The translations under genes and the position numbers were made by a program. 38,679 bases of DNA from contig WHST01000059.1 of NCBI GenBank assembly GCA_009379955.1, positions 1 through 38,679 on the forward strand, in the 5' to 3' direction. The first letter of the stretch is position 1. Each line of letters begins with the position of its first letter. Under the pieces are notes generated by a model that had not been told where the DNA came from, did not search any database, and saw only the letters and a program-made list of their open reading frames with translations. Positions 8,514 to 24,544 of the stretch are shown here, in pieces. This DNA is from Streptosporangiales bacterium. Its GTDB lineage: Bacteria; Actinomycetota; Actinomycetes; Streptosporangiales; WHST01.

Positions 8514-9572
8514 GTGGTGACCGAGCGGAACCATCGTGTCGCAGTGATCGCGGGAGACGGGATCGGGCCCGAGGTGATGCCGCCCGCCCAGGCGTGCGTG
8601 GACGCTCTCGCGCGCCGCCATGGGTTCGCCGTCTCGTGGCACGAGCTCGACTGGGGCTCCGACCGCTACCGGCGCACCGGCGAGATGATGCCGGCGGATG
8701 GACTCGACCGGCTGGCCGAGCACGACGCGGTGCTGCTGGGCGCCGTGGGCGCGCCCGACATCCCCGACACGGTCACCCTCTGGGGCCTGCTGATCCCGAT
8801 CAGGAGGACGTTCCACCAGTACGTCAACCTGCGGCCGGTACGGACGCTGCCCGGCGTCCGCAGCCCGCTGCGCGAGTCCGCGGACATCGACCTCGTCGTC
8901 GTGCGGGAGAACGTCGAGGGCGAGTACTCCGAGGTCGGCGGGCGTCTCTACCGCGGTCGGCCCGAGGAGGCCGCGATCCAGGAGACCGTCTTCACCCGCG
9001 CCGGAGTCGCGCGGGTGACCAGGTTCGCCGCGGAGCTGGCCGAGACCAGGCGCGGCTTCCTCACGTCCGCGACGAAGTCGAACGGCATCGTCCACACCAT
9101 GCCGTTCTGGGACGAGGTCGTCGACGAGGTGGTCGCGGGTCACCCGGACGTCCGTACCGAACGGATGCTCATCGACGCGTTGGCGGCCCGGCTGGTGCAC
9201 GACCCGCAGCGGTTCGACGTGATCGTCGCCTCGAACCTCTTCGGCGACATCCTCTCCGACCTCACCGCGGCGCTCACCGGGTCGATCGGCATCGCGCCGA
9301 GCGCGAACCTCAACCCCGAGCGCGACCACCCCTCGATGTTCGAGCCGGTCCACGGGTCGGCGCCGGACATCGCCGGCCGCGGGCTCGCCAACCCGATCGG
9401 TCAGATCTGGTCGGCCGCCCTCATGCTCGACCACCTCGGCCAACCGGAGGCGGCCGGCGAGCTGTGCGGCGCCTTCGAGGATGCTCTCGCGAGCGGCGTC
9501 GCGACCGCCGACCTCGGCGGCTCCGCGTCCACCGCGGACTTCACCACGGCGGTCCTCGACCGGCTCGGCTGA
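8514..9572 (+). CDS. Tartrate dehydrogenase / D-malate dehydrogenase family
   Basis: This 352-residue enzyme belongs to the isocitrate/isopropylmalate dehydrogenase superfamily of NAD-dependent beta-decarboxylating dehydrogenases. The N-terminus AVIAGDGIGPEVM and the catalytic Lys region TSATKSNGIVHTMPFWDEV are present, as are the metal-binding DILSDL and the cofactor segment EPVHGSAPDIAGRGLANPIG. Substrate-loop features point to the TtuC/DmlA branch rather than LeuB: VTLWGLLIPIRRTFHQYVNL and VVRENVEGEYSEVGG. The likely product is pyruvate or oxaloglycolate from D-malate or tartrate. GTG 8514 follows GAAGGG by eight bases; GTG 8517 is an alternative. It is divergent from rpsF and alone, but its substrate class matches the carboxylate cluster at 12427-21838. 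Confidence 0.88.
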   Translation: MVTERNHRVAVIAGDGIGPEVMPPAQACVDALARRHGFAVSWHELDWGSDRYRRTGEMMPADGLDRLAEHDAVLLGAVGAPDIPDTVTLWGLLIPIRRTFHQYVNLRPVRTLPGVRSPLRESADIDLVVVRENVEGEYSEVGGRLYRGRPEEAAIQETVFTRAGVARVTRFAAELAETRRGFLTSATKSNGIVHTMPFWDEVVDEVVAGHPDVRTERMLIDALAARLVHDPQRFDVIVASNLFGDILSDLTAALTGSIGIAPSANLNPERDHPSMFEPVHGSAPDIAGRGLANPIGQIWSAALMLDHLGQPEAAGELCGAFEDALASGVATADLGGSASTADFTTAVLDRLG

Positions 9573-10519: not shown

Positions 10520-10528
10520 CCTGGCGTG

Positions 10529-10566: not shown

Positions 10567-10589
10567 ATCGTCAATAGGCTCGCCGCCCG

Positions 10590-10619: not shown

Positions 10620-10657
10620 GACTTCACCTCGTGCCGGGACGAGGTGAAGTCCACGTT
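10614..10657. repeat. Perfect 19-bp inverted repeat
   Basis: Bases 10614-10632 (AACGTGGACTTCACCTCGT) and 10639-10657 (ACGAGGTGAAGTCCACGTT) pair perfectly around a GCCGGG loop. It could act as the terminator of the tetR gene, which reads toward it, but overlap with the preceding palindrome is unusual for a terminator. Confidence 0.85.
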
Positions 10658-10694
10658 GGTGAGGTGAAGCTCCGCCGATGACCCTCGCAGCGCA

Positions 10695-10750
10695 CCCGTG
10701 AACGGCACCCTCACCATGCCCCGGCACGGTGAGGGTGCCCCTCACGGGTT
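10695..10750. repeat. Imperfect hairpin with a dispersed 28-bp motif, copy 1
   Basis: GGCACCCTCACC (10704-10715) pairs with GGTGAGGGTGCC (10728-10739), and CCCGTGA (10695-10701) with TCACGGG (10742-10748). Bases 10723-10750 are identical to 31925-31952. A motif shared at two unrelated intergenic sites suggests a REP-like palindromic element. The remaining gap to tetR, 10751-10840, shows no feature I can support. Confidence 0.75.
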
Positions 10751-10840
10751 GCGGCCGCGAAGCGACCGACACCACGACCGAGTCCACCCTTGTCACCCGC
10801 CCCGGGGTCGCCGTACCAGCGGCGATGGATGACTGACAAC

Positions 10841-11446
10841 TCACCCGGCGCGGGCGGCTGCCGCCACCAGTGCGCTCGCCGCGTTCCTCGCGTGCGCCGC
10901 CGCGTCGGGGTCGAGGCCGAGACCATGCGCCACGCACGCCCCCTCGTGCAGCAGGAGGAGCTGGTCGGCGAGGGCTCCGGGGTGCGCCAGGCCGGCCGCC
11001 TCGGCCAGCTCGGTGAGGTACTCGCGCACCCAGCGCTTCTGGTCGAGCACCGCAGCCCGGCCGGGATGGGCGGGGTCGGTGATCTCGGCGGCGGCGTTGA
11101 CGAAGCCGCAGCCGCGCGGGTCGGTGTTCTCCGCGCGCTGCCAGGCGCCGAGGCCGTCGAAGACCGTGAGCAGCCGCTCGACCGGGTCGGATCCGCCGTG
11201 CTCGTCGACGTGCCGGACGAGGTGCGTGCGCCACCTCTCGTCCCGTGCGCGCAGGTATGCCTCGACCAGCCGGGCCTTCGAGCCGAACCGGTCGTAGAGC
11301 GTCTTCTTGGTGACGCCCGCGGTCTCGGCCACGAGGTCGACGCCCACGGAGCCGATGCCGCGGGTGTAGAACAGCTCGCTCGCCGCCGCCAGCACCCGCT
11401 CGCCTGCCGGGGTCAGCCGCGGCGCGGCCACCGGTTCGCTCGTCAT
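10841..11446 (-). CDS. TetR family transcriptional regulator
   Basis: This TetR repressor of about 201 residues is divergent from an EamA-type exporter gene. The N-terminal helix-turn-helix is clear (LAAASELFYTRGIGSVGVDL, then ETAGVTKKTLYDRFGSKARL). The remainder is a helical ligand-binding domain with GCGFVNAAAEITDP, as in actinobacterial regulators of exporters. ATG 11446 lies seven bases after GGAAGG; ATG 11449 is the alternative. A TetR-type operator at 11480-11493 lies in the shared promoter region, so it should repress the exporter and probably itself. Confidence 0.92.
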   Translation of the reverse strand: MTSEPVAAPRLTPAGERVLAAASELFYTRGIGSVGVDLVAETAGVTKKTLYDRFGSKARLVEAYLRARDERWRTHLVRHVDEHGGSDPVERLLTVFDGLGAWQRAENTDPRGCGFVNAAAEITDPAHPGRAAVLDQKRWVREYLTELAEAAGLAHPGALADQLLLLHEGACVAHGLGLDPDAAAHARNAASALVAAAARAG

Positions 11447-11508: not shown

Positions 11509-12420
11509 ATGGATCTCGCCACCCCCGTCTCGCCCCGGGCAGGTACGCCCACGCGCTCGGCCAGGCTCACCGACCTCGCGCTGGCCGCCGGGTTCGTTCT
11601 CGCCTGGAGCTCCGGCTTCGTCGGCGCCGAGCTCGGCACGCTCGCCGCGGGCGCGGTGACCCTGCTCGCCTGGCGGGGGATCGTCGGCACGGCGGTCCTC
11701 CTCGTCCGGCAGGCCCGCCGCCGCGGCCGGTGGCTCGGCGTGCGGGAGCTCGTCACGCAGGCGGGGATCGGTGTGCTGTCCCAGGCCGGGTACCTGCTCG
11801 GCGTCGTGCTCGCCATCCAGCTCGGGGTGCCGGCGGGCACGGCCGCGCTGGTGGCCGCCCTGCAGCCGCTCGTGTCCGGCGTGCTCGCCGGCCCCGTGCT
11901 CGGCGAACGGGTCGTGCCGCGGCAGTGGGTCGGCCTGGTGATCGGACTCGGCGGGGTCGCTCTCGTGGTCGCCGGCGACCTCGCGGTGCCGGCTGGAACC
12001 CCGCCGTGGGCGTACGCCCTCCCGTTCGCCGCCATGGCCTCGCTCGTCGCCGCCACCCTGCTCGAGCGCCGGCTCGCGCCCCGCACAGGTGTGGCGGAGG
12101 GTCTCACGGTGCAGACCGGCGCGAGCACGGTCGTCTTCGTCGCGGTCGCCGCCGGCTCGGGATCGCTCGTCCCTCCCGCCGACCCGACGTTCTGGGCCGC
12201 CGTGGTCTGGACGGTCGTGCTCTCCCACCTCGGCGGGTACGCGCTGTACTGGCTGAACGTCCGGCGCGGTGGCGTGACGAGGGTCGGCGCGCTGCTCTAC
12301 CTGACGCCGCCCGCGACCGCGCTGTGGGCGTTCGCGATGTTCGACGAGCCGTTCGGCATCCTCGCCGTGGCGGGCATGGTGATCTGCGCCCTCTCGGTGC
12401 CGCTGGCGCTCAGGCGCTGA
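11509..12420 (+). CDS. EamA/DMT family exporter
   Basis: This 303-residue inner-membrane transporter of the drug/metabolite superfamily has ten predicted helices arranged as two EamA repeats. The first holds LAAGFVLAWSSGFVGAELG and the loop GVPAGTAALVAALQPLVSG; the second ends with GALLYLTPPATALWAFAMF and DEPFGILAVAGMVICALSV. Family members export amino acids, nucleosides or drugs. Control by the adjacent TetR protein suggests induction by a compound it exports. It is convergent with the enolase-superfamily gene, with only six bases between stops and no visible terminator. Confidence 0.92.
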   Translation: MDLATPVSPRAGTPTRSARLTDLALAAGFVLAWSSGFVGAELGTLAAGAVTLLAWRGIVGTAVLLVRQARRRGRWLGVRELVTQAGIGVLSQAGYLLGVVLAIQLGVPAGTAALVAALQPLVSGVLAGPVLGERVVPRQWVGLVIGLGGVALVVAGDLAVPAGTPPWAYALPFAAMASLVAATLLERRLAPRTGVAEGLTVQTGASTVVFVAVAAGSGSLVPPADPTFWAAVVWTVVLSHLGGYALYWLNVRRGGVTRVGALLYLTPPATALWAFAMFDEPFGILAVAGMVICALSVPLALRR

Positions 12421-12426
12421 GCCGAC

Positions 12427-13524
12427 TCAGGTCGTGAGCACGGTGGCGTCGAGGAAGTCGGTGTCGACGGTCATGCCGAGACCGGGGGCGTCGGGCAGCA
12501 CGATCTCGTCGTCCTTCGGCCGCGGCGCGTCGGGGAAGATCTGCTCGCCGACCTGTTGCATGCCCAGGTGGAACTCCACCCGCCAACCGCCGCGCAGCCC
12601 CGCGATCAGGTGCATGTTGAAGTGCGGCCAGCCACCGCCGTTCGCGATCGGCAGGCTGAAGGCCTGCGCGAGGTGACCCACCCTGCGCGCCTCGGTGTAG
12701 CCGCCGCAGTAGCAGACGTTGGGCTGGATGATGTCGACCGCCTGCGCGTCGACGAACTCGCGGAGCCGTAGCAGGTGTCCGTCCATCTGGCCCGCGGAGA
12801 GTGGGATGTTCGTCCGGCGGCGGAGGTCCGCCATGGCCCGGACGTCGTTGCCGTGCAGCGGTTCCTCGAACCAGACGATCCCGCAGTCCTCGACGGCGCG
12901 GCAGAGCAGCAGTGCCTCGGTGGGACTGAACAGGTAGTTGGCGTCGATGGCGAGCTCCACGTCGTCGCCGACCGCGGCGCGGACGGCCCTGATGCGGTTC
13001 GCGTCCTCCCGCCAACCGTCCGGATGGACGGCGACGACCATCTTCAGCCGTCCCACGCCCGAACGGACCTGCAGCCGTGCCGCCTCGACGAGCTGGTCCC
13101 TGTCGTACTGGGGGAAGCCGAACGTCACGTACGCCGCGGCGCGGTCGCGGTGCCCGCCGAGGAGCTGCGCTATCGTCCGGCCGGCGCCCTTGCCCGCGGC
13201 GTCCCACATCGCGATGTCGAGCGCCGACATGGCACTGGAGATGACCCCGGTCTGGTTGCGCTGGTTGAGCGCCTTCGCGACCCGTGCGTGCACGGCCTCG
13301 GTGTCCCTGATGTCGACGCCCCGCAGCAGCGGGGTGATGTGCTCCGTGAGCGCGGCGACGACCGCGTGGGGAAGGAACTGCCCGGTGAGACCGAACCCGG
13401 TGAGCCCGCCGTCCGTCTCGATCCGGCAGGTCACGAACGTGCGTTGCCCGATCGGCTCGTCGAGCAACGGCACCGTGAAGGGCGCCCGGTGGGCACGGGC
13501 TCGGACGTCGGTCAGTTCGTACAT
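12427..13524 (-). CDS. Enolase-superfamily enzyme (mandelate racemase/dehydratase-like)
   Basis: This 365-residue protein has an enolase-superfamily capping domain (about 1-125) and a TIM barrel. Proton abstraction next to a carboxylate, usually leading to dehydration or racemisation of an acid sugar or hydroxy-acid, is expected. Aligned by spacing with mandelate racemase, the metal-ligand positions hold Asp194 (AIDANY) and Glu220 (FEEP), but Gln246 (SAGQMDGH) replaces the usual Glu/Asp. The general-base Lys is probably Lys161 (GRLKMVVAV), without the second Lys of a KxK pair. The Asp of the His-Asp dyad is Asn269 (QPNVCYCGG), with a candidate His301 nearby. It is the last gene of the operon, overlaps the MmgE/PrpD gene by 13 bp and has its own GAGGAG. 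The substrate is unassigned. Confidence 0.85.
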   Translation of the reverse strand: MYELTDVRARAHRAPFTVPLLDEPIGQRTFVTCRIETDGGLTGFGLTGQFLPHAVVAALTEHITPLLRGVDIRDTEAVHARVAKALNQRNQTGVISSAMSALDIAMWDAAGKGAGRTIAQLLGGHRDRAAAYVTFGFPQYDRDQLVEAARLQVRSGVGRLKMVVAVHPDGWREDANRIRAVRAAVGDDVELAIDANYLFSPTEALLLCRAVEDCGIVWFEEPLHGNDVRAMADLRRRTNIPLSAGQMDGHLLRLREFVDAQAVDIIQPNVCYCGGYTEARRVGHLAQAFSLPIANGGGWPHFNMHLIAGLRGGWRVEFHLGMQQVGEQIFPDAPRPKDDEIVLPDAPGLGMTVDTDFLDATVLTT

Positions 13525-14891
13525 GGCGCTCCTCGGGTGTCAGCTGACGGTGCGGGTCGGTCGAGTACGTCGGTCCAGCCGTGGTCGGACATCCGTGCCA
13601 CGCCGCGCAGGGTCGTCACCAGCAGGTCGGCCTGGTCGGCGCCGAGCACGGGCGCGACCAGCTCGCGTGCCTTGCCGTCGACCTCCGCCGACGACATCGG
13701 GTCGCGTGGGCTGCCGTGGATCGCGGTGACCCGATGGGCGAGTGACCGGTCGCCGGCCCGGACGACGACATGTGCCTGGCGCAGCGGTTGCATCCCCGCG
13801 TCGGTGCGGATCGTGATGCGCGGGTCGCCGCCACCGCCGCGCCAGGACGAGAACCTACGCATGTCGTGCACCGCGGCGAAGGTCAGGCGCCCGTCGGTCA
13901 GGATCACCCCGAGCACGTACGCGAGATCGATGTCGGGCATGTCACGCGAGTCGACGACGTGGGCGAGTGAGCCCGGGAGCACGACCTCGACACCGGTGAC
14001 GTCGGTTCCGCTGAGGTGATGTGTGCGCATCACCTCCAGCAGGGCCTGCGCGGGCGCCTGGATCGGAGAGCCGACCGGCAGCCACTTGATGTTCGTCCGC
14101 GCGACGGCGTAGTCCGTGCCGAGGCCGGCCGTGAGCACGTCGGGGTCGGCGTCCTCGCCGATGACGTCGAGGAAGCCGGACTCCCCGGTGAACGGCTCGT
14201 CGATCCCCGGCCAGCCCGCCGCGACCAGCCGGGCGAGCTGCACGCCGTCGGACGCGGGCATGCCCGCGAAGACGTACGCCTTCTGCACGTGCTCGGCGTC
14301 GCGGAGCCATGCCGTCGTGCCACTCGCGCGCTGGCAGGCGTACGAGAAGAGATGTGCCAGTCGCGCCGGGCCCAGGTCGGCGAGTGCGCCGGCCGTGGCG
14401 GCGCTGCCGAACAGTCCGCCGATCGCGTGGGTGCTGTGCCGGGTGGCACGGAGTGCGGTGAAGTCGGGCCACAACGCCCGGGTCGTCCGCGCGCAGACGT
14501 CGTAGCCGAGTGCGACCGCACGCAGGAGCGACCGGCCAGGAGCCCCGGCGGACTCCGCCACGGCGAGGGCGGCCGGCACGATGGAGCAGCCCGGGTGCGT
14601 GCGTGACGGCTCGTGCGAGTCGTCGGTCTCGTCGGCGTGTGCGGCCATGCCGTTGGCCAGCGCCGCGTGCGCGGTGTCGGTGCGCAGGCCCGTACCGAGC
14701 ACGGTCGCCTGCGGGCTCCCCCCGTGGGCTCTCGCGAGAGCCTGTCCGTGCCTGCCGGCCGGCAGCACCGAGCCGGACACGATCGCCGCCACCGTGTCGA
14801 CGAGGTGGTCCGTCGCGCGCTCGGCCACGTCGTCGGGAAGCGGGCGATCGAGCGCGGTGGCCACGTACTCCGCCAGCACCCGCGTGGTCAC
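13512..14891 (-). CDS. MmgE/PrpD family protein (operon copy)
   Basis: This 459-residue protein belongs to the MmgE/PrpD family, which includes 2-methylcitrate dehydratase, cis-aconitate decarboxylase and iminodisuccinate epimerase. These enzymes act on tri- or dicarboxylates. The N-terminal helical domain holds the active-site stretch AAHADETDDSHEPSRTHPGC (His85, Asp87, Asp90, Asp91, His93). A later segment is TNIKWLPVGSPIQAPAQALL, and the C-terminal domain contains DPMSSAEVDGKARELVAPV. It differs clearly from the divergent copy at 20495, so the two probably catalyse different steps. The GTG overlaps the tctA stop (GTGA), making it part of the transporter operon. The exact reaction is not assignable from sequence. 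Confidence 0.88.
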   Translation of the reverse strand: MTTRVLAEYVATALDRPLPDDVAERATDHLVDTVAAIVSGSVLPAGRHGQALARAHGGSPQATVLGTGLRTDTAHAALANGMAAHADETDDSHEPSRTHPGCSIVPAALAVAESAGAPGRSLLRAVALGYDVCARTTRALWPDFTALRATRHSTHAIGGLFGSAATAGALADLGPARLAHLFSYACQRASGTTAWLRDAEHVQKAYVFAGMPASDGVQLARLVAAGWPGIDEPFTGESGFLDVIGEDADPDVLTAGLGTDYAVARTNIKWLPVGSPIQAPAQALLEVMRTHHLSGTDVTGVEVVLPGSLAHVVDSRDMPDIDLAYVLGVILTDGRLTFAAVHDMRRFSSWRGGGGDPRITIRTDAGMQPLRQAHVVVRAGDRSLAHRVTAIHGSPRDPMSSAEVDGKARELVAPVLGADQADLLVTTLRGVARMSDHGWTDVLDRPAPSADTRGAPCTN

Positions 14892-16441
14892 GGGTGGCGC
14901 TCCAGCTCTGCGGTCGACGCGTTCGTCGCCTCGCCGGGGACGGCGTCGTCGGACTTCGACAATAGTCGGCGCACCGGTCCGACCGCGCTCGCGAGGAGCA
15001 GCAGCACGGTGAGGCACAGGACGCCGAGCGAGATCGGCCGCTGGACGAAGACGCCCAGGTCGCCCTGCGAGATGGTGAGTGACTGGTTGAGGCTCCGCTC
15101 GAGCATCGGGCCGAGGACGACGGCCAGGACGAACGGCGCCGCCGGGTATCCCAGCCTGCGCATCCCGTATCCGAGCAGCGTGAAGAACGCCAGCAGGAGG
15201 ACGTCGACGACGTTGTTGCGCAGGCTGAACGCGCCGATCACGGCGACGAGGAAGACGAGCGTCGACAGGTAGTGGTACGGCATGCGGAGCACGGACGCGA
15301 AGAGCGGGACGAGCGGCAGGTTCAGCACGAGCAGGACGACGTTGGCCAGGTAGAGGCTCGCGATCACGCCCCAGACGAGCGCGGGCTGCTCCTGCATCAG
15401 CAGCGGCCCCGGCTGCACGCCGTAGAGCACGAGCCCGCCCAACATGACCGCGGTGGCACCCGAGCCGGGGATGCCGAGGGTCAGGAGCGGGACGAGCGCC
15501 CCCGCGGTGGCGGCGTTGTTGGCGCCCTCGGGAGCGACTACGCCGGCCATGGCGCCCTTGCCGAACGTCTCTGGCCGCTTGGAGAGCCGGCGTTCGACCC
15601 CGTAGCTGAACAGCGACGCGATGGTCGCGCCCGCGCCGGGGAGCACGCCGACGAAGAACCCGACCAGCCCGCCCCTCAGCATGCTCGGCCAGGTCTCCCG
15701 CAGGTCTGCGCGCTTCGGGTACACCGAACGCCACTTCGGCCGGCTCGCCTGCAGCGTGCCCATCCCCGTGCGGAGGTTGACGAGGATCTCGGCGAGCGCG
15801 AAGACACCCATCGCGACGATCACGAAGTCGACTCCGTCGATGAGATCCACGACGCCGAAGGTGAACCTGTTCTGCCCCGAGACCGGGTCGGCGCCGACCG
15901 TCGCGACGAGCAGGCCCGCGGCGAGGGAGACGAGGACCTTCGCCTTGGATCTGCCGCCCATGAACGCGAGCAGCGCGAAGCCCAGCAGCAGGATGGCGAA
16001 GTACTCCGGCGGGCCGAGCCGCAGCGCGAAGCTCGACAGCAGGGGCGCGCCGAACATCAGGAGCACGACGGCCAGGGTGCCCGCGGCGAACGAGCTGATG
16101 GCCGCCATCCCCAGGGCGGCGCCCGCCCGGCCCTGGCGGGCGAGCTGGTACCCGTCGAGTGCGGTGACGACAGAGGCGGACTCCCCGGGTGCGTTGACGA
16201 GGATCGTGGTGATCGAGCCGCCGTACATCGCGCCGGTGTAGATGCCCACGAACATGATGAGCGCGGAGACGGGTTCCAGGCCGATGGTGAGCGGCAGCAG
16301 GATCGCGATCGTCGCGGACGGGCCGAGACCGGGCAGCGCGCCGATGATCGTGCCGACGAGCGCGCCGATCAGAGCGAAGAGGATGTTCTGCGGCTCGAAG
16401 GCGACCGCGAACCCGTGCAGGATGTCGGAGAACGGGATCAT
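14888..16441 (-). CDS. tctA: Tripartite tricarboxylate transporter, large membrane subunit TctA
   Basis: This 517-residue subunit forms the transport channel of a TTT-family importer, which takes up di- and tricarboxylates using an ion gradient and a periplasmic binding protein. The family signatures are [20 protein letters not shown] near the start and [20 protein letters not shown] in the second half, each part of an inverted repeat of membrane helices. About 11-12 helices are visible. The ATG overlaps the tctB stop (ATGA) and its own stop overlaps the MmgE/PrpD gene. Known substrates of TTT systems include citrate, tartrate, tricarballylate and sulfolactate; this one is unknown. Confidence 0.96.
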
Positions 16442-16941
16442 GAGCGCAGGATCCCGATCGGCAGCGGCACCTCGAGGAGCCGGGCGAAGACCACCGACAG
16501 CGTGATCGCGGCGAGCACCGAGAAGATCGCGGACCGGATGACGCCCACGCGTTCGACCCCGACGAGCACGGCGAACGAGAAGAGCTTGGCCGTCACCACG
16601 AAGCCGACGGCTTCGAGGACCAGCGCGACCACCACGAGCAGGAGCAGCGCGAGTGCCGGCTTGGCACGAGCGTGCCATCCGGCGGGCTCGGGGACGGGTG
16701 CGTCACCGGTCACCCGGCCCGCCGGTCTCACCAGCACTGCCCGCAACAGCACCACCAGGCCGAAGACGCCGAGGGTGAGCGATGCCCACAGCGGGAGGAA
16801 CCCGGGGCCGGGGCGTCCGTACTCCACCCGGTACGCGAATTGAAGCGACAGCAGGAGGAACGCGCCGCTCGCCGCGACGATCACCAGGCCGGCGGCGACC
16901 TCGACCCCCCGCGAGGGTGAGTCAGGCACCGAGTCGGGCAT
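16438..16941 (-). CDS. tctB: Tripartite tricarboxylate transporter, small membrane subunit TctB
   Basis: This 167-residue hydrophobic protein has four predicted membrane helices (about 14-36, 50-72, 94-122 and 136-160) and the PGPGFLPLWASLTLG segment typical of TctB. It pairs with TctA in the membrane. It starts four bases after the tctC stop and overlaps tctA by four bases, so the three transporter genes are translationally coupled. Sequence conservation in this family is low; the call rests on size, topology and position. Confidence 0.9.
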   Translation of the reverse strand: MPDSVPDSPSRGVEVAAGLVIVAASGAFLLLSLQFAYRVEYGRPGPGFLPLWASLTLGVFGLVVLLRAVLVRPAGRVTGDAPVPEPAGWHARAKPALALLLLVVVALVLEAVGFVVTAKLFSFAVLVGVERVGVIRSAIFSVLAAITLSVVFARLLEVPLPIGILRS

Positions 16942-16945
16942 GACG

Positions 16946-17953
16946 TCACCTCCGCTTCAGGTCCATGTCCTCGATGAGCTCGGAGAGCCGGGGTGCCACC
17001 TCGTCGTCGAGGTAGGCGTCCAGCTGCGTGTGGTCCTGGTACGCCGCGAGCGCGCCGCTCTCCTTCACGTACTGCTTCCACTCGGGAGTGCCGGCGACCT
17101 TGCGCATGGCGGACTCGAGGAACGTCACCGCCTCCTCGCACATCTCCGGTGCGCCGAGCAGGATCCGCGGTGACTCCCCGGTCACGTCGATCCCGGCCTC
17201 CTTCGCCGTCGGGACGGTCGGCAGCGTGGACAGCCGTCGTTCGGTGGAGAACGCCACCAGACCGCGCGCCTTACCCGCCCTGATCTGCTCGAGTGCCTCG
17301 GACGGCTGGCCGGATGCCATGTCGACGTGCCCGCCGAGCATGTTCACCATCGCCGCGCCGCCGCTGTCGTGGTTGACGTAGCTGAACTTCGCCCCGGCGT
17401 CGCGCGCCACCTGGTAGAAGAGCAGGTGGTCGGAGGAGCCGATGGTGCCGAAGCCGACGGTGATCTTGCCCGGCCGTCGCTCGGCGTCGGTGAGCAGGTC
17501 GCCGACGTTCTTCCACGGCGCGTCATCGCGGACCAGCCACACGTTCGGGTCCAGGGTCATCCGTGCGATCGGCGTGACCTCGTCGAGGTTGACGCCGATC
17601 CCGCCGCGCATGATGTTGACGAGCACGGAGATCGGGGTCGAGATCGTGGTGTGGTCGTCGCCGCTCGCGAGCCGGCGGATCGCGCTCGCGCCGTCGCCGC
17701 CCTCGGCGTTCTCGACGACGAACGGCTGCGGTGAGATCTCGTGCTTCTTCACGATCTGCGCGATCTCACGGGCGATCAGGTCGGACCCGCCGCCGGGTCC
17801 GGTGTGCACGAGGATCGTGACCGGCTTGGTCGGATAGTCGGCACAGTCGGAGGATCCGCCGGACGACGAGTCCTGACCGGTGATCGCGCTGCAGGCGGAC
17901 AGGAGGAGGGAGAGGGCAACCACTGCGGGGAGCCAAGCGCTTCGTCGGGCCAT
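16946..17953 (-). CDS. tctC: Tripartite tricarboxylate transporter, substrate-binding lipoprotein TctC
   Basis: This 335-residue solute-binding protein captures the carboxylate outside the membrane and delivers it to TctAB. It has a lipoprotein signal with a lipobox (LLLSACSA), so it should be anchored by Cys21. The mature domain has the TctC/Bug-family hallmarks YPTKPVTILVHTGPGGGSD, IGSSDHLLFYQVAR, FSYVNHDSGGAAMVNMLGGH and LPTVPTAKEAGIDV. Bug-family proteins bind carboxylates through backbone contacts in two conserved loops, so the ligand cannot be read off. GAAGGTG lies seven bases before the ATG. The gene follows the second ComA-family gene by 26 bases. Confidence 0.95.
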   Translation of the reverse strand: MARRSAWLPAVVALSLLLSACSAITGQDSSSGGSSDCADYPTKPVTILVHTGPGGGSDLIAREIAQIVKKHEISPQPFVVENAEGGDGASAIRRLASGDDHTTISTPISVLVNIMRGGIGVNLDEVTPIARMTLDPNVWLVRDDAPWKNVGDLLTDAERRPGKITVGFGTIGSSDHLLFYQVARDAGAKFSYVNHDSGGAAMVNMLGGHVDMASGQPSEALEQIRAGKARGLVAFSTERRLSTLPTVPTAKEAGIDVTGESPRILLGAPEMCEEAVTFLESAMRKVAGTPEWKQYVKESGALAAYQDHTQLDAYLDDEVAPRLSELIEDMDLKRR

Positions 17954-17979
17954 GGCTGTTCACCTTCTGGGAGGGTTCG

Positions 17980-18798
17980 TTACGCGTCCTCGAGCGCGGC
18001 GGCCTTCGCCGCGCCGTCGTTCAGGAACCAGTAGCCGACGTCGCGAGTCATGCCGACACGCATGCTCTCCACGACGAGGGCGTCGTCGGGTAGCAGGTTC
18101 TCGAAGCTCACCTCGGGGCCGAAGCGGCCGAGCAGGTCGACCGTCAGGTGCGGCCAGCCGGCGGGGCGCACCTCGAAGACGAGCGAGGCGAGGCCGACCC
18201 GGTCGACGAGCCGGTCGAGCGCGGACGGCTCGTCCTCGCACCACACGAGGATGTCGGTGTTCTCCAGCGTGACGGACGAGGCGCCCGAGTCGAGGTCGGC
18301 ACGCACCCGCTCCACCGTCTCGTCGAGGTCCATCGGACCGGACGAGATCTTCTCGCCGAGCTCGGTGAACACCGCGAGGCCGTGGTCGCGTGCGCGACCG
18401 ATCAGCTCGTGCTTGCGGGACCGGCTGAGCCGTTCGATCGAGTCCTCGCTGATCTCGACGCCGTCGAAGCCGAGCTCGGCGAGCCGTTCGAGGTACGCCT
18501 CCTCCTTGCGCTGCAGGACGGCTATCTGGAACGGGATGCCGCCGGGACGTACGGGAAGCCCGGTCTCGTGGTAGAGCGCGATCCTCGCCGTGAGCCGGCC
18601 GAGGTCCAGGTCGCGGATCAGCCCGACATGGTCGGTGAGCTTGATCCAGTCGACGACGTCGGCCGCCGTCTCGCAGAGCCCGGCCGCGGCCGTGGTGGCG
18701 AGCCGGCGGTCCTTGACGACGGTGAGCCCGTGGCTACGCGGCTTCGCGCCACGTGCAGGCAGCCGGAGGAACGGCATGCCGCAGGAGTCCGGCGCCAT
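17980..18798 (-). CDS. Phosphosulfolactate synthase (ComA)-family protein, paralogue 2
   Basis: This 272-residue TIM-barrel protein belongs to the family of ComA, which adds sulfite to phosphoenolpyruvate in coenzyme M synthesis. Shared family segments are VVDWIKLTDHVGL, GLPVRPGGIPFQIAV, LGFDGVEISEDSIE, FTELGEKIS (Lys150, at the position of the ComA active-site lysine) and GASSVTLENTD. The loop after IKL lacks the archaeal GWGTS-like sequence, so phosphate or sulfonate handling may differ. The gene starts three bases after paralogue 1 and is the more divergent of the two. Synthesis of coenzyme M is unlikely here; a catabolic or lyase role with the neighbouring carboxylate transporter is inferred. 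No reaction is assigned. Confidence 0.8.
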   Translation of the reverse strand: MAPDSCGMPFLRLPARGAKPRSHGLTVVKDRRLATTAAAGLCETAADVVDWIKLTDHVGLIRDLDLGRLTARIALYHETGLPVRPGGIPFQIAVLQRKEEAYLERLAELGFDGVEISEDSIERLSRSRKHELIGRARDHGLAVFTELGEKISSGPMDLDETVERVRADLDSGASSVTLENTDILVWCEDEPSALDRLVDRVGLASLVFEVRPAGWPHLTVDLLGRFGPEVSFENLLPDDALVVESMRVGMTRDVGYWFLNDGAAKAAALEDA

Positions 18799-18801
18799 GG
18801 C

Positions 18802-19605
18802 TCATCCTCGATCCGTCGCCGGCTCGAGCTGCTGGAAGAGCGTGTAGCCCTCGTCGCGACCGATGCCGTACCTGGCCGGCTCGATCTTGAGCCCGACCTG
18901 CTCCGGCAGGATGTTGGGCCCGAGGTTCACGTCGGGTCCGAAGGTCTCGAGCAGCCACATCTGGTGCGCGGTCGTCTCCGCCTCGAAGATGAGCGGGTCG
19001 AGTCCGGTCTTCTCGACGAGCCGAACGAGCCGACCGGCCTCCTTGCCGTCGCACCGCGCACCCAGGGTCACGTCGAGCTGGCTGCGCTCGAGGATGACGC
19101 GCGAGGCGCCGGCGTCGAGCATCGCGTTGATCTCGTCGGCCGCGCCGTCGACGTCGAACGCCGCCGTCGGGTACTTCTTCCCGTACTCGAAGAGCACCTC
19201 GAGTCCGGCGGCGATGGCGCCTTCGACCGCTTGGCGCTTGTCGGCGAGCGCGATGTCGATGATGTTGTCGGAGATCTCGATCGCCTGGAACCCGAGGTCG
19301 CGCAGCCCGTCGAGGGTCTGCGGGAGCATGCCCCGGTGGTACGCGACCTCGAAGACGATGCCGCCGGGGAACGGGACGATGTCGTGCCGCCGGTAGATGG
19401 CGTTCTTCTCGCGGGTGATGTCGGCGGCCGTGTACCAGACGGCCCACTGACGGAGCTTGACGTAGTCGAGGTAGTCGCCGATGGCGCGCGCGACGTCGGT
19501 CGCCTCGCCGACGCCGAACCCCCAGTCCCTGACGATGGTGATGCCCTTGTCGCGCGGCTTGCGGCCGCGTCGGGGGAGATCGAGGAATTCCAGTCCGTAT
19601 TTCAT
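18802..19605 (-). CDS. Phosphosulfolactate synthase (ComA)-family protein, paralogue 1
   Basis: This 267-residue ComA-family TIM barrel shows LDYVKLRQWAVW, REKNAIYRRHDIVPFPGGIV, LGFQAIEISDNIIDIAL, LFEYGKKYP (Lys143-Lys144, matching the ComA GKK) and GASRVILERSQLDV. It ends VNLGPNILPEQVGLKIEPAR, like the C-terminal segment of ComA. The residues after VKL (RQWAVW) differ both from archaeal ComA and from paralogue 2. Tandem arrangement suggests a hetero-oligomer or two sequential steps. It is the first gene after gntR (29 bases) with only a weak ribosome-binding site. Known family members make phosphosulfolactate from sulfite and phosphoenolpyruvate; the reverse direction or a related conjugate addition/elimination is possible here. 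Confidence 0.82.
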   Translation of the reverse strand: MKYGLEFLDLPRRGRKPRDKGITIVRDWGFGVGEATDVARAIGDYLDYVKLRQWAVWYTAADITREKNAIYRRHDIVPFPGGIVFEVAYHRGMLPQTLDGLRDLGFQAIEISDNIIDIALADKRQAVEGAIAAGLEVLFEYGKKYPTAAFDVDGAADEINAMLDAGASRVILERSQLDVTLGARCDGKEAGRLVRLVEKTGLDPLIFEAETTAHQMWLLETFGPDVNLGPNILPEQVGLKIEPARYGIGRDEGYTLFQQLEPATDRG

Positions 19606-19634
19606 TGTGGGTACCTGCCCTACTGCTGCGCTGG

Positions 19635-20411
19635 TCAGGGAGAGGACACGAGGTCGATCCGCATCTGCATCCGGTAGCGGTCGTGGCGGTGGAAGATCCG
19701 GGAGAAGATCACGGGCGTGCCGGTCGTCACGTACCAGACCCGCTCGATGATGACGAGCGGTGCGCCGACGGCGATGCCGAGTGGCTCGGCGTGGTGCTGG
19801 TCGGCAGTGCCGACCTCGAGGGTGGCGTCGACGTGGGAGAACTCCAGCCCGTAGCGCGTGCCGAGGAGGTCACGCAGGGCGCTCGACGCGAAGTCGGCGG
19901 GCCCGAGGCCGGGGAAGAGCCGCTGCGACAGGTAGGTGACCTGCGTGGCGACGACCTCCCCGTCGGAGAGCCGCAGTCGGCGGATCTTGTAGACCAGCTC
20001 CTTGTCGGTGACGGCGAGCCGGTCCTTCAGCCGCACGTCGGGGGGGATGGTGTCGACACCCATCACCCGGATGGTCGGTGAACCGCCGCGCCGGGAGATG
20101 AGCTCACGCGTGGACACGAGCGACTGCAGGCCGGCGATCTCCTCGCCGAGCTTCGCCGGGGCGACGTAGGTGCCGCTGCCCTGGCGGCTGAAAAGGACGC
20201 CTTCGGCGACGAGGCTGTTGACGGCCTGGCGCACCGTCGTGCGGCTGACGCCGAACTGGGTGCAGAGCTCGCCCTCGGTGGGGAGACGGGAACCGGGTTG
20301 CTGCGAGCTCGCGAGGTCGCGAAGGGCTCGCTTGACCTGCCGCCAGAGTGACGTCGCGGACTGGTCGATCTCGCTGCGCGAGACGGCCAGCGGACTCCGG
20401 TCGGGCGGCAT
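19635..20411 (-). CDS. GntR family regulator, HutC/UTRA subfamily
   Basis: This 258-residue regulator has an N-terminal GntR winged helix (SRLPTEGELCTQFGVSRTTV, then VAEGVLFSRQGSGTYVAP) and a C-terminal UTRA ligand-binding domain (about 90-250; RLSDGEVVATQVTYLSQRLF and PLVIIERVWYVTTGTPVIFS). UTRA proteins sense small acidic or sugar-like metabolites. GGAGGGAG lies six bases before the ATG. It is the first gene of the carboxylate operon and divergent from an MmgE/PrpD gene, with a perfect palindrome overlapping both promoters. It is therefore the probable local repressor, relieved by the transported substrate or an intermediate. Confidence 0.93.
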   Translation of the reverse strand: MPPDRSPLAVSRSEIDQSATSLWRQVKRALRDLASSQQPGSRLPTEGELCTQFGVSRTTVRQAVNSLVAEGVLFSRQGSGTYVAPAKLGEEIAGLQSLVSTRELISRRGGSPTIRVMGVDTIPPDVRLKDRLAVTDKELVYKIRRLRLSDGEVVATQVTYLSQRLFPGLGPADFASSALRDLLGTRYGLEFSHVDATLEVGTADQHHAEPLGIAVGAPLVIIERVWYVTTGTPVIFSRIFHRHDRYRMQMRIDLVSSP

Positions 20412-20434
20412 CGTCCACTCCCTCCGGCGAGGAG

Positions 20435-20473
20435 ATTCATCATGTTGTCATGATGAATTTTGCGTGTCAACAT
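20435..20473. promoter_or_regulatory. Palindromic operator and overlapping divergent promoters of gntR and mmgE
   Basis: ATTCATCATG (20435-20444), TTGT, CATGATGAAT (20449-20458) is a perfect inverted repeat with 10-bp arms. A minus-strand promoter can be drawn as TTGACA (20465-20470), 17 bp, CAACAT (20442-20447). A plus-strand promoter can be drawn as TTGTCA (20445-20450), 17 bp, CAACAT (20468-20473). One bound GntR dimer could thus control both directions. The palindrome is certain; the promoter hexamers are predictions. Confidence 0.7.
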
Positions 20474-20494
20474 GGCCCCGTGGTGGAGCCGCTG

Positions 20495-21838
20495 ATGGAC
20501 ACCGTGAGTCGCTGGGTCGCCGCGACCACGCACCACGACCTCCCGGTGGAGGTGCGCGCGAAGGCGGCGCAGGGCGTCCTCGACGGGCTCGGGGTGGCGC
20601 TGGCCGGTTCACGGCACCCGGCGAGCCGTCCCGTCACGAGACTGGTGACCGATCTCGGCGGGCGTCCGGAGGCGAGCGTTCTCGGCTCCGGCCTGCGCAC
20701 GTCGAGTGTCGACGCCGCGCTGGCGAACGCCTACTACGCCCACGTGCTGGACTTCGACGACACGCACGTCGACGCGATCGTCCACGTCAACGCGCCCGTC
20801 CTGGCGGCGGCCCTGGCGACCGCGGAGGCGACCGGGGCCGCCGGTGCCGCCCTGCTCGCGGCGCAGGCCGTCGGCATGGAGGTCACCTCGCGGATGGCGG
20901 TGGCCATGGAGCAGCACCACGACCACGGCTGGCACCTCACCGGTGTCGCCGGCGCGTTCGGCGCCGCCGCTGCGGCCGCGAGCGTCCTGCGGCTCGACCC
21001 GGAGCGCACGGCCCATGCGCTCGGTGCCGCGAGCACGCTGGCGTCGGGGCTGCGCATCCATCGGGGCACGGGGACGAAGTCGCTGAACCCGGCCAACGCC
21101 GCGGCGAACGGCGTGCTCGCCGCGCTGGCGGCACGTGCCGGCATGACGAGCAACCCCGCCGTTCTCGACGACACTCGCCGCGGCGTCCTCGTCAGCCATG
21201 GCGTGTCGACCGATCCGGCGACGCTGGCCGCCGGGCTCGGCGAGTCGTACCGCATGCTCGGCGTGGAGCCCAAGCCCTACCCGTGCGGGGTCGTGGTGCA
21301 CGCGCCGGTCGACGCCGCACTCGACCTGCTCGCGGAGCACCGCGACCGGCTCGCCGCGGACCCGGTCGAGAGCGTGGCGCTCACGGTCCACCCGCTGGTG
21401 CTGGAGCTCACCGGCAACCCCAGGCCGCGCACCGGTCTGGAGACCAAGTTCAGCGTCCAGCACGCGGTCGCCGTCGCCCTGCTCGAGGGGCGGCTCCTGC
21501 CCGAGCACTTCGGCGAGGACTGGGCCGAACGTGCGGACGTCATGCGCCTACGGGACCGCGTGACCGCGCGGGTCGACCCGGAGTCGAGCCGGCACGAGGC
21601 GACGATCCGGGTGCACACCCGCTCCGGCCACGAACTCACCTCGACGTCCGCGGCCCGCGGCACGCCGTCCCGTCCGATGACGGCCGAGGACGTCGAGGCG
21701 AAGTTCCGCCACCTGGCCACGCCGGTCCTCGGCGACCTGCGGGCAGGGCAGGTCGTCGAACGCGTCCGCCGCCTGGCGGACGCCGGCCCGGTCGACGACC
21801 TGACCGCGCTCCTCCGCCCGTACCCCCCGGGCGAATGA
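20495..21838 (+). CDS. MmgE/PrpD family protein (divergent copy)
   Basis: This 447-residue protein is of the MmgE/PrpD type, related to 2-methylcitrate dehydratase and cis-aconitate decarboxylase. The active-site stretch is HVLDFDDTHVDAIVHVNAPV (Asp86, Asp88, Asp89, His91). Later come GLRIHRGTGTKSLNPANAAA, VEPKPYPCGVVVHAPVDAAL and the lysine-containing LETKFSVQHAVAVALLEG, which is closer to the classical family pattern than the operon copy. ATG 20495 is chosen because GGAG lies six bases upstream and the protein then opens at the normal place; the frame extends further upstream into the gntR promoter. It is transcribed away from gntR under the shared operator, so it belongs to the same pathway. 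Confidence 0.88.
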   Translation: MDTVSRWVAATTHHDLPVEVRAKAAQGVLDGLGVALAGSRHPASRPVTRLVTDLGGRPEASVLGSGLRTSSVDAALANAYYAHVLDFDDTHVDAIVHVNAPVLAAALATAEATGAAGAALLAAQAVGMEVTSRMAVAMEQHHDHGWHLTGVAGAFGAAAAAASVLRLDPERTAHALGAASTLASGLRIHRGTGTKSLNPANAAANGVLAALAARAGMTSNPAVLDDTRRGVLVSHGVSTDPATLAAGLGESYRMLGVEPKPYPCGVVVHAPVDAALDLLAEHRDRLAADPVESVALTVHPLVLELTGNPRPRTGLETKFSVQHAVAVALLEGRLLPEHFGEDWAERADVMRLRDRVTARVDPESSRHEATIRVHTRSGHELTSTSAARGTPSRPMTAEDVEAKFRHLATPVLGDLRAGQVVERVRRLADAGPVDDLTALLRPYPPGE

Positions 21839-21927
21839 TCAAGTTCAGTGGGTGAATGCGCGCTTCCCACGGCCCATGTGCCATGGTCAGTACGGCTTGA
21901 CCAACTGAACATGATCATTCGCCCGGG
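21826..21927. terminator. Long hairpin between mmgE and rraA
   Basis: CCCGGGCGAATGATCA (21826-21841) pairs perfectly with TGATCATTCGCCCGGG (21912-21927), and GTTCAG (21843-21848) with CTGAAC (21905-21910), leaving a 56-base loop. It lies between two convergent genes and overlaps the mmgE stop. The long loop is more than a simple terminator needs. Confidence 0.6.
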
Positions 21928-21964
21928 AGGGGGGCGGCGGGGTCAGAGCCAGGGGGTGGCGGGG

Positions 21965-22444
21965 TCAGGCCGGGGCTTGGGCGCGGACCACGATGCCGTC
22001 GTCGTCGGCGGCGAGCCAGGTGCCGGGGGTGAAGGTCGCCCCGCCGAACGACACCTCGACGTCGACCTCGCCCGTGCCGTCCTTCCCGCTCTTGCGCGGG
22101 TTGCTGCCGAGCGCCTTGACGCCGAACGGCAGGTCGCGCAGCGCCGCGACGTCGCGGACGGCGGCGTTGATCACCAGGCCCGACCAGCCGTGCGTCAGGC
22201 CGAGGCCGGCGACGATGTCGCCGACGAGCGCGCAACGCAACGAGCCGCCGCCGTCGATCACGAGGACGGCGCCGTCGCCCGGCGTCGAGAGCGTGGCCTT
22301 GACCAGCGCGTTGTCCTCGGAGCAGCGCACGGTGCGCACGGGTCCGTGGAATGCGCGTCGTCCGCCGTACTGGGTCAGCTGGAGCTCGCAGCTGCCCAGC
22401 TCGTCGCCGTACTCGTCCATCAGGTCCGCAGTCGCGAAGGTCAT
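21965..22444 (-). CDS. rraA: RraA family protein (RNase E regulator / aldolase fold)
   Basis: This 159-residue protein matches E. coli RraA in length and sequence pattern: [57 protein letters not shown] and [15 protein letters not shown]. RraA binds and inhibits RNase E in enterobacteria; relatives are class II aldolases and oxaloacetate decarboxylases. Arg97-Asp98 of the aldolase motif are present, but the following acidic pair is not (RDVAAL), which favours an RraA-like role over HMG aldolase. It is adjacent to the carboxylate cluster, so a decarboxylase role is possible but weakly supported. It is divergent from the endonuclease IV gene. Confidence 0.85.
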
Positions 22445-22536
22445 GCCGGTCAGCCTCGTCCCGCGGACGGGTGCGGGTCAACGTGCCGTTCGCCACTGGC
22501 ACGCCGGCCGCTCTGGTCGGTGTCGGTGCCGGACCG

Positions 22537-23308: not shown

Positions 23309-23335
23309 GCCGGCTGAGCCGGCGGGTCAGCCGGC
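23309..23335. terminator. Bidirectional terminator between nfo and the PIG-V-type gene
   Basis: GCCGGCTGA (23309-23317) and TCAGCCGGC (23327-23335) form a perfect 9-bp stem with a nine-base loop, between the two convergent stop codons. Confidence 0.7.
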
Positions 23336-24544
23336 CCAGTCGCCGACGACGAAGCGCGCGGTCATGTAGCCCATCGCCGGCACCGAGACGACCAGGTACG
23401 CCATCAGCAGCCACCAGCGCCTCATGGCGAGCCGGCCGAGCAGCAGCCACAGCGGCCACCACAGCAGCGTCGCCCTGGTGACCGACAGGTAGTACGAGCT
23501 GGTGAGCAGGGCGCCGACCTGCAACCCGACGTACACGAGCTCGTCGAGCCGCCGCGTCAGCAACAGGTAGAGGCACAGCCCCACCCCGACGGGCGCCGCG
23601 ATCAGTTCGAAGATGAACGGGAGCTGGTTCTCCCCGGGGAGCATGGCGTTCTCCCAGGTCGTCGCGAGGCTCTCCCACGGCCAGGTGAACGTGCGTCCCC
23701 AGCCCTGCTCCTGGGCGGTCAGCCAGGCGGTCCAGTCGCCGGTCTTCGCCCAGAGGTAGACGGTGAACGCGGCGAGCGGCAGGAACGGCAGGACGAGCGC
23801 GAGGGCGCGCGCGGGTGACCGCCGTACCTCCGCGACGGCCGGTCTGTCGCCGGCGCGGTCCGGGATGAGCGCGTAGTCCTTGGGCGACGCGTGCCTGGTG
23901 GCGTGCCGGCCCCGCCGCCGCCGCGACCGCTGCCGGCGGCGTTCGCGCACGACCTGGGTCACGAACATGACGATGAGCGCGATCGCGAGGAACAGGCCGG
24001 TGATCCTGATGGTCGAGGCGCACATCGCCAGCAGACCGGCCCAGCCCCACCGGCCGCGGCGGGCGTGCAGCCAGGCGGGCAGCGCGAACGCGAGGAACGT
24101 CGCCTCGGTGTACCCGGCGGCGAGGAACACCGCCCACGGGGAGAACAGCAGGAACGTCGCCGCGCGCGGCCCGGTGCCGTGCGGGCCCTCGGCGTCGCCG
24201 AGGCGCACCAGCGAGAGGGTCGCGACGAGCGACGCGACGAGCGAGATGACCAGGCCCGCCAGGGTCCAGTTCGGGATCACGTAGTGCACGGCATGCAGCA
24301 GCAGCGGGAGCCCGGGGAGGAACCCCCGCAGGCCGGGATCGAAGCGCTGGTCCGGGTTGCCGTCGTAGCCGTACTGGGCGATCTCGACCAGGTGGGTCGC
24401 GTCCCACCGCTGCCAGGCGTCGAGTCCGCCGAGCAGCGCGGCGAGCCCGCCGAGCGCGACCGTGGCCGCGAAGATCACGAGCAGCCGCGAGCCCGTCCAC
24501 AGGCCCAGCGCCCACCACTCGACCGCCGCGGCCCGGCGCATCAC
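23327..24544 (-). CDS. Membrane mannosyltransferase-like protein (PIG-V type, GT-C fold)
   Basis: This 405-residue integral membrane protein has about ten helices and a long basic cytoplasmic loop (about 205-245; RERRRQRSRRRRGRHATRH). The extracytoplasmic loop RWDATHLVEIAQYGYDG carries the acidic residue typical of polyprenyl-phosphate-sugar-dependent GT-C enzymes. FSPWAVFLAAGYTEATF is a PIG-V-family segment. It probably transfers mannose or another hexose from a polyprenyl-phosphate donor to a lipid, glycan or protein outside the membrane. Its ATG overlaps the stop of the GT87 gene (TGATG), so the two membrane glycosyltransferases are coupled. The acceptor is unknown. Confidence 0.82.
   Translation of the reverse strand: MMRRAAAVEWWALGLWTGSRLLVIFAATVALGGLAALLGGLDAWQRWDATHLVEIAQYGYDGNPDQRFDPGLRGFLPGLPLLLHAVHYVIPNWTLAGLVISLVASLVATLSLVRLGDAEGPHGTGPRAATFLLFSPWAVFLAAGYTEATFLAFALPAWLHARRGRWGWAGLLAMCASTIRITGLFLAIALIVMFVTQVVRERRRQRSRRRRGRHATRHASPKDYALIPDRAGDRPAVAEVRRSPARALALVLPFLPLAAFTVYLWAKTGDWTAWLTAQEQGWGRTFTWPWESLATTWENAMLPGENQLPFIFELIAAPVGVGLCLYLLLTRRLDELVYVGLQVGALLTSSYYLSVTRATLLWWPLWLLLGRLAMRRWWLLMAYLVVSVPAMGYMTARFVVGDWAG

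Follow-up and report, generated by a model that had tools for sequence, protein, structure and literature searches.

A transporter-linked operon with two divergent ComA homologs in a Streptosporangiales bacterium: a candidate accessory pathway for a dicarboxylate-type acid

Introduction

Phosphosulfolactate synthase (ComA), the PF02679 enzyme associated with coenzyme M (CoM) synthesis, adds sulfite to the C=C double bond of phosphoenolpyruvate (PEP), and is represented by the enzymes of M. jannaschii (1QWG), B. subtilis (1U83) and the CoM operon of Xanthobacter Py2. Two proteins of the same Pfam family and predicted fold, here called ComA1 and ComA2, are encoded on contig WHST01000059.1 (C59) of a Streptosporangiales bacterium, whose 6.61-Mb genome (GCA_009379955.1, G000) is in 225 contigs; the window that we analysed is the forward strand of this contig from position 1 to 38,679 (38,679 nucleotides). 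Whereas CoM-type ComA genes have fumarate-lyase-family and PALP partners, those of the window lie with a tripartite tricarboxylate transporter (TTT) and MmgE/PrpD-family enzymes. We lean slightly towards reading this locus as a self-regulated accessory catabolic operon for an imported acid of the 1,4-dicarboxylate type, acting through three unrelated enolate-forming families. G, C and L numbers below denote genomes, contigs and loci.

TctABC importers, including that for sulfolactate, SlcHFG (PMC5812351, in its accessible part), bring all three subunits together with catabolic genes and a GntR regulator, as does the window, but the partner enzymes in the window differ from those of the known loci. 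According to the available sections of PMC5994714, the TTT family has expanded greatly in some proteobacteria without a clear physiological explanation. The MmgE/PrpD family includes 2-methylcitrate dehydratase, cis-aconitate decarboxylase, iminodisuccinate (IDS) epimerase and methylsuccinate isomerase; in the accessible text of PMC12290011, the acids handled by characterised members share a four-carbon 1,4-dicarboxylate unit, an enolate mechanism is proposed, a set of conserved residues is common to these members, and the epimerase and isomerase have an extra tyrosine. Our literature search, to which most subscription papers were closed, found nothing that joined either 'phosphosulfolactate synthase' or 'MmgE PrpD' with 'tripartite tricarboxylate', and the titles and opening lines of abstracts on phosphosulfolactate synthase within that reach contained nothing on such a locus.

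Results

A preliminary description of the window had reported a minus-strand operon, from gntR to an enolase-like gene, with overlaps or short gaps, and a second mmgE-like gene diverging from it across a shared palindrome; coordinates and Pfam matches bear out this layout. In a Pfam scan of 15 window genes, every gene of the locus gave a clear match at its claimed coordinates, with TctA, TctB and TctC present together. The eight minus-strand genes, from GntR (20411) to ENO (12427), overlap by 13 and 4 nt or are separated by gaps of 3-29 nt, which makes a single transcription unit plausible:

12427..13524, minus strand: ENO, enolase-superfamily (MR/MLE) enzyme (PF13378/PF02746; MR_MLE_C 3e-52)
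13512..14879, minus strand: MMG1, MmgE/PrpD-family enzyme (PF03972/PF19305; MmgE_PrpD_N 6e-48)
14888..16441, minus strand: TctA, large TTT membrane subunit (PF01970 1e-159)
16438..16941, minus strand: TctB, small TTT membrane subunit (PF07331 6e-16)
16946..17953, minus strand: TctC, TTT solute-binding protein (PF03401 4e-30)
17980..18798, minus strand: ComA2, PF02679 protein of a non-CoM clade (PF02679 3e-39)
18802..19605, minus strand: ComA1, PF02679 protein of a non-CoM clade (PF02679 3e-52)
19635..20411, minus strand: GntR-family regulator with UTRA ligand domain (PF00392 + PF07702)
20435..20458, no strand: perfect 10-bp inverted repeat with 4-bp spacer, putative operator between the divergent units
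~20480..21838 (start uncertain, 20450-20495), plus strand: MMG2, divergent MmgE/PrpD-family enzyme (PF03972/PF19305; 6e-58)

The preliminary description had spoken of a ComA 'pair', a term that does not fit two proteins that are 35% identical and fall into separate clades. In a tree of 69 rows, ComA1 groups with L013, L020, L021 and L044 (96/94) and ComA2 with L022, L023 and L048 (100/99), while a clade of their own (99/98) unites the CoM-operon enzymes with both solved structures and four further rows; the deeper joins of this tree are unsure owing to long branches. That both proteins lie over the PF02679 cut-off of 25.2 bits (178.1 and 135.3 bits) would suit true phosphosulfolactate synthases, serving the synthesis of CoM or sulfolactate. 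On TIGR03849, the model for phosphosulfolactate synthase (cut-off 280), they reach 149.5 and 126.3 bits. The cut-off itself is a weak test, as only one of four CoM-operon enzymes passes it (217.0, 224.9, 267.1 and 325.7 bits); the gap between these enzymes and five TTT-linked ComAs, both window proteins included, which score 120-150 bits, is a stronger one.

Core and pocket were compared in 62 of the 69 tree rows (L024, L025, L026, L100, L114, L118 and L119 were left out). Fourteen core positions are all kept in 54 of these rows, and are present to 14/14 in ComA1 and 13/14 in ComA2 (E79Q). A second set of 14 positions (1QWG 45, 47, 76, 107, 169-173, 177, 207, 211-212 and 244), which would line the substrate pocket, provides a signature that reads GGTGGRESGGPQQR in 1QWG. 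All 12 CoM-operon enzymes stay within two changes of this string and 1U83 shows two changes where covered, whereas the signature reads RWINRSQLDGEHQG in ComA1, with 12 of the 14 positions changed, and THIDNTDIL-RLTT in ComA2, with all 14 changed; other clade-typical strings are found in sulfatase-linked, TcuA-linked and further clades. Seven ComAs from a phylum sample, fetched afterwards as hold-outs, all keep the CoM-type string within two changes; none has a Tct or MmgE match in the stretch read, two show a CoM cluster that can be recognised, a weak TcuA-like match lies near one, and one changes a core residue. The CoM-operon partners (two fumarate-lyase-family genes, PALP, and DUF7714 or an equivalent), sought by Pfam against L115, L117 and cluster representatives, are absent beside the window ComAs. 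Taken with the low TIGR03849 scores, the lost signature and missing partners led us to reject CoM biosynthesis by the window ComAs; both are probably, to judge from their sequences, not phosphosulfolactate synthases, and the contrary is very remote. Addition of sulfite to PEP, the ComA chemistry named in the preliminary description, is thus not the expected reaction, since neither protein carries the CoM-enzyme signature. More broadly, and as the stronger point of the analysis, a role in coenzyme M synthesis has probably been abandoned by the TTT-linked PF02679 proteins, including ComA1 and ComA2.

The AlphaFold model of ComA1 (pLDDT 88) has ComA structures as its nearest solved folds (TM 0.81 by query to 1QWG), and places a helix in the stretch after strand 6, where ComA holds GRESG. 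After the ComA structures come class II aldolases, dehydroquinate dehydratases and, lower down, oxaloacetate decarboxylase, an order that would agree with the ComA homologs being C-C lyases or aldolases (or a single heteromeric lyase) at the end of the pathway rather than addition/elimination enzymes. The operon otherwise has no dedicated lyase, and HpcH/HpaI and PrpF genes lie beside ComA at a Rhodoglobus locus described below. We nevertheless find this alternative doubtful: the aldolase-type matches (TM ~0.5) reflect general TIM-barrel similarity, L021 and L042 already have a lyase-family gene, and the final step could come from an RraA-like protein or a tartrate dehydrogenase (TDH) encoded nearby.

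The window genome has three ComA genes in two loci, and 11 TctC and 24 MmgE/PrpD genes, a large number of both families for one genome. Its third ComA gene (contig C33) adjoins TctC, TctA and TctB; both ComA loci are therefore directly beside TctC-TctA-TctB, in a genome where a site taken anywhere has a chance of about 3% of being within 10 kb of a TctC gene. Within the window's order, 7/297 genomes (its own and six others) have a ComA relative at 1e-20; the six others carry CoM-operon genes of the DUF7714 and fumarate-lyase clusters beside ComA, and show no TctC match in the stretches read. Eight of the 396 genomes in the phylum sample (the window's own and seven others) have a relative of ComA2. 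When one genome per species was scanned by pattern, nine relatives came up, the closest (53%) in a betaproteobacterial metagenome-assembled genome (MAG), G297; in an even sample of the order of G297, 29/399 genomes, G297 included, have a relative at E 1e-15. G297 itself (L020, L041-L048) has 11 PF02679 genes, at least 97 TctC genes and 89 MmgE/PrpD genes, with three ComA genes within ~10 kb in L042. Six matches from this order contain one in-frame TGA, but selenocysteine was rejected as an explanation, as the alignments of L082 and L086, which run past it, are read-through past the normal stop and the others end there.

Plain co-occurrence within 10 kb was discarded as evidence in the G297 order, where the numbers per genome in ten genomes range from 33 to at least 97 for TctC (97 being the most that the search could score, in seven of them) and from 3 to at least 106 for MmgE/PrpD. 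Because proximity means little in genomes so crowded, we asked instead for a TctC gene in the same strand run as ComA (gaps up to 200 nt), with 323 genes from 20 arbitrary stretches of ten G297-order genomes, mostly contig starts, as controls. TctC is in the run of 14/19 ComA genes against 34/323 controls (Fisher p 1.3e-9), a comparison in which genes sharing a genome are not independent rows, G297 supplying 11 of the 19. The split is 7/11 against 13/99 in G297 and 7/8 against 21/224 in the other genomes. The control genomes G541 and G359, without a counted ComA, have one that the gene caller missed (L103, L108); counting both as negatives would give 14/21. TctC is directly adjacent to 11/19 ComA genes (22/323 controls), and MmgE is in the run of 3/19 (1/323).

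The same count over all called ComA genes covers 53 (the caller missed L015, L016, L017, L023, L103 and L108; the plasmid loci L112-L119 were left out, and L050 and L051 excluded as copies of L021 and L023). TctC is in the run of 19/43 genes outside the CoM class and 0/10 inside it, the class being set by locus and including L024-L026 and L100, which belong to the CoM clade but to no CoM operon that was recognised; the TctC genes that lie within 10 kb in L100 are all outside the ComA run. The remaining 24/43 non-CoM genes have no TctC in their run, for example in the sulfatase-linked clade (L047 with L082-L091) and in called members around L090-L099. On the tree of 69 rows the trait 'TctC in run' must change no fewer than nine times, so the ComA-TctC link is spread over several clades.

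The partners at these loci, assigned for the most part by scanning one or a few members per BLAST cluster, include enzymes that act on or yield aconitate-like acids. On Paracoccus versutus pTAV3, one strand carries MmgE, an FCD regulator, MmgE, TctA, TctB, TctC and SDR, and the other ComA followed by the tricarballylate dehydrogenase TcuA; Bradyrhizobium p53363 has TctC, then MmgE-PrpF-ComA; the Rhodoglobus MAG has TctC, TctA, TctB and SDR, with ComA, PrpF, a transporter and an HpcH/HpaI lyase divergent. In L045 an operon-like run joins ComA to aconitase, OCD, MmgE and TctC, and in L042 a ComA follows a PEP-mutase/PrpB-like gene. The neighbour of ComA in L098, L046 and L113 is a TcuA-type dehydrogenase that passes the NF006130 cut-off. 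The window locus is more than a chance assembly, and is a variant of TTT-linked acid-catabolism loci. Divergent ComA homologs beside ABC transporters (L114, L118 and L119; Allorhizobium pAtS4c, Arthrobacter and Chelativorans) suggest still other substrates for these.

Sulfatase-family genes adjoin ComA in the L082-L091/L047 clade (where they are the neighbour in L082-L089, L091 and L047), in L049 and in L104, and a TauD-type dioxygenase directly neighbours ComA in L048 and is the second gene downstream of it in L022, so sulfur chemistry may occur in the PF02679 family at large. For the window, this raises a live rival to the catabolism of a sulfur-free carboxylate, namely degradation of an organosulfonate (sulfolactate- or sulfosuccinate-like), in which TctABC would import the compound and the ComA homologs would run their C-S chemistry backwards to release sulfite. 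The two TauD loci are among the three ComA2 relatives, the family chemistry forms a C-S bond, an NrtA/SsuA-type ABC transporter follows ComA-TcuA on pTAV3, and import of sulfolactate by a TTT system is known from SlcHFG (PMC5812351, accessible part). Both window ComAs have, however, lost the positions that set the CoM enzymes apart, the Pfam scan of 15 window genes gave no sulfite-handling, SuyAB-like or SlcD/ComC-like gene, and carboxylates fit MmgE/PrpD and TDH better. The TauD and sulfatase families also have many non-sulfonate substrates. On this balance, we judge the sulfonate explanation unlikely, though live.

The MmgE/PrpD enzymes of the window resemble the characterised family in having both N- and C-terminal domains and most active-site residues (in IDS-epimerase numbering, with residues from the accessible part of PMC12290011), and differ from it in scoring far below the PrpD equivalog cut-offs (MMG1 35 vs 950 bits; MMG2 46 vs 575, 42 vs 458 and 32 vs 950 bits). 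MMG2 keeps the equivalents of H85, D88, H99, H150, K198 and K266 (6/6). MMG1 keeps those of H85, H99, H150 and K266, with Glu at 88; its sixth residue (K198) is one residue off by MAFFT, while phmmer aligns a Lys there. Neither has Tyr145, the second base of the epimerases. With most of the conserved residues kept and the second-base tyrosine missing, the sequences lean towards dehydration or decarboxylation rather than two-base epimerisation of the tyrosine type, and towards a substrate that holds a 1,4-dicarboxylate. In MMG1, the gene caller picked GTG 14879 as the start; an in-frame GTG at 14891 overlaps the TctA stop.

ENO was rightly placed in the enolase superfamily by the preliminary description, with both the N- and C-terminal MR_MLE domains, but its catalytic residues are not the usual ones. 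It shares its fold domains and first two metal-ligand motifs with mandelate-racemase-like acid-sugar dehydratases and departs from them in carrying K-M-V, Gln246 and Asn269 in place of the K-I-K, Glu and Asp of 4GGB, so that its metal ligands read Asp/Glu/Gln. We take the three changed positions to be those of the second Lys in K-x-K, of the third acidic metal ligand and of the Asp in the Asp-His dyad. In 5/5 aligned ENO-type proteins they hold Val or Ile, Gln and Asn, and ENO is, by its residues, a non-canonical member of the superfamily. Its clade, bacterial and haloarchaeal (L151, L152, L155, L156), is mostly TTT-linked, with invariant Gln and Asn where 4GGB is acidic. We inspected the best four plasmid matches: the relatives in Neorhizobium SOG26 (56%), Paracoccus pantotrophus pPAN3 (49%) and the haloarchaeon Halostagnicola larsenii (47%) respectively adjoin TctA, precede TctC and TctA, and follow TctC-TctB-TctA, and that in Burkholderia arboris (43%) has no Tct neighbour. 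On pPAN3, a predicted aac(3)-Ih aminoglycoside acetyltransferase gene (L152:1-266) lies ~10 kb from ENO-TctC-TctA.

The occurrence of ENO with Tct genes but without ComA (L151, L152, L155), and of ComA with TctC but without an ENO match in many loci, raises the possibility that the window locus is a patchwork, in which a TTT importer with its own enzymes (ENO and MMG1) and an unrelated ComA/MmgE module share regulation rather than a pathway; the full set not being found again points the same way. The tight same-direction spacing, the single unique palindrome and the presence or absence of the block as one segment argue against it, and we rate a patchwork as quite improbable, below the sulfonate and lyase alternatives.

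This last point comes from a comparison with the congener G002, listed as 100% complete; G004 is 77% complete and gave short matches only. G002 keeps the order rplI, ssb, rpsF, TetR, EamA transporter, endonuclease IV, but has ~1.2 kb of other sequence in place of window 12370-22518, which holds the operon, MMG2 and the RraA gene. Because this whole block is missing at the matching place, the operon is accessory; with one comparable congener, in which it is absent as a unit, it may have been gained by the window genome or lost by G002. GC content was tried as a mark of recent transfer and set aside, no contrast being seen. Window 8467-10897 (TDH, a TipAS-domain protein and GNAT) is likewise absent from G002, which has 62 nt there. 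Beside TDH in this segment, at 9582-10043 on the minus strand, is a stand-alone protein with a TipAS antibiotic-recognition domain. A third indel separates endonuclease IV from the next gene (23327-24544): the two are adjacent in the window (junction 23309-23322) and ~11.6 kb apart in G002 (L167).

The two flanking genes that the preliminary description had offered as sources of further steps, a tartrate/D-malate dehydrogenase and an RraA-like protein, both stand as annotated:

8514..9572, plus strand: tartrate dehydrogenase TDH (TIGR02089 513.9 vs cut-off 470.4 bits)
21965..22444, minus strand: RraA-family protein (NF006875 211.8 bits vs cut-off 136)

TDH passes the first tartrate-dehydrogenase model and falls just below a second, NF006048 (495.9 vs 501 bits); four genes separate it from the operon. 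Its 64% homologs in G002 and G001 are found in the order enolase-superfamily gene, TctC, TctA, TDH, and a TctCBA-TDH arrangement occurs in Pacificitalea (pDY25-A, with PdxA). Like the window, these clusters combine a TTT importer, TDH and an MmgE or enolase-superfamily enzyme; unlike it, they show no ComA match in those stretches. Since the homologs of TDH sit in enolase-superfamily/TctC/TctA clusters, TDH is a reasonable pathway partner, possibly for an accessory step. The RraA-like protein is no more than a candidate member of the pathway; it has no counterpart at the matching place in G002, and its best match in G001, G002 and G004 is 40%.

The palindrome between the divergent units, ATTCATCATG-TTGT-CATGATGAAT at 20435-20458, is expected 0 times in shuffles of the window. 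A search of the 6.6-Mb genome for its 22-nt core, allowing up to three mismatches, gives one site, and the reversed control gives none. Its perfect symmetry and unique occurrence make it a probable operator. Since it covers the first ATGs (20450, 20453) of the MMG2 open reading frame, MMG2 probably starts at GTG 20480 or ATG 20495. A search of the locus for sigma-70-like promoters, the only type sought, found none.

Discussion

Our analysis describes an operon that brings ComA1 and ComA2, of two different non-CoM clades, together with a complete TTT importer, a GntR regulator, two MmgE/PrpD enzymes and a non-canonical enolase-superfamily protein. In the pathway that we slightly favour, the GntR/UTRA protein would sit on the palindrome as a repressor of the two divergent units, to be released when it binds the imported acid or one of its derivatives. 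TctABC would import a substituted 1,4-dicarboxylate, or possibly a tricarboxylate that holds this unit (tartrate-, citrate- or methylcitrate-like). The MmgE/PrpD proteins would then abstract a proton at C2, in a dehydration, decarboxylation or epimerisation, and ENO would perform a metal-assisted proton abstraction. The ComA homologs may add a nucleophile, most simply water, to the C=C bond of a carboxylate or catalyse the reverse elimination, a role extrapolated from the reaction of sulfite with PEP and from the aconitate-like-acid partners seen at other loci (TcuA, PrpF, aconitase and MmgE). The product could be finished by TDH, RraA or central metabolism. We infer which class of acid is used, what each enzyme does and in which order, and that GntR acts as a repressor, and likewise that one pathway serves one acid.

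Several observations weigh against this proposal. The preliminary description had suggested looking for co-occurrence of ComA with TctABC and MmgE/PrpD: overlapping parts of the set do recur, but the complete gene set of the window was not found together elsewhere in the searched genomes. Two MmgE-like proteins, ENO and two ComAs also make many steps for one small acid. Other ComA clades differ in what surrounds them, with sulfatase, TauD, outer-membrane efflux and further genes as neighbours, so each clade may have a substrate of its own. The PF02679 core is not universal, with four changes in L048 and two or three in six of seven further G297 rows, and the signature was chosen from the very alignment that it describes, the independent sample being the seven hold-outs, all of CoM type. 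Several ComA-linked MmgE relatives are changed at active-site positions, some of which may be misalignments.

For the family as a whole, the evidence leaves evenly poised the idea that PF02679 is a diversified superfamily of enolate chemistry, with a conserved core and at least six clade-specific pockets, many of whose non-CoM members are TTT-linked and catabolic, and that two of these clades meet two further families that form enolates in a single pathway of the window operon. The enolase superfamily offers a likeness in principle, having a largely conserved core and differing pockets. Phosphosulfolactate synthase is the default name of these proteins, carried by all 20 of the PF02679 plasmid matches listed (20 of 32), and this name would mislead if the non-CoM members are catabolic enzymes with other substrates. 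The operon provides a defined handle, consisting of an importer, a regulator, a probable operator and five enzymes, on TTT binding proteins. Its two ComAs hint that the name hides a group of enzymes so far unrecognised which, if the proposal is true, would amount to a set of new enzyme activities open to direct test.

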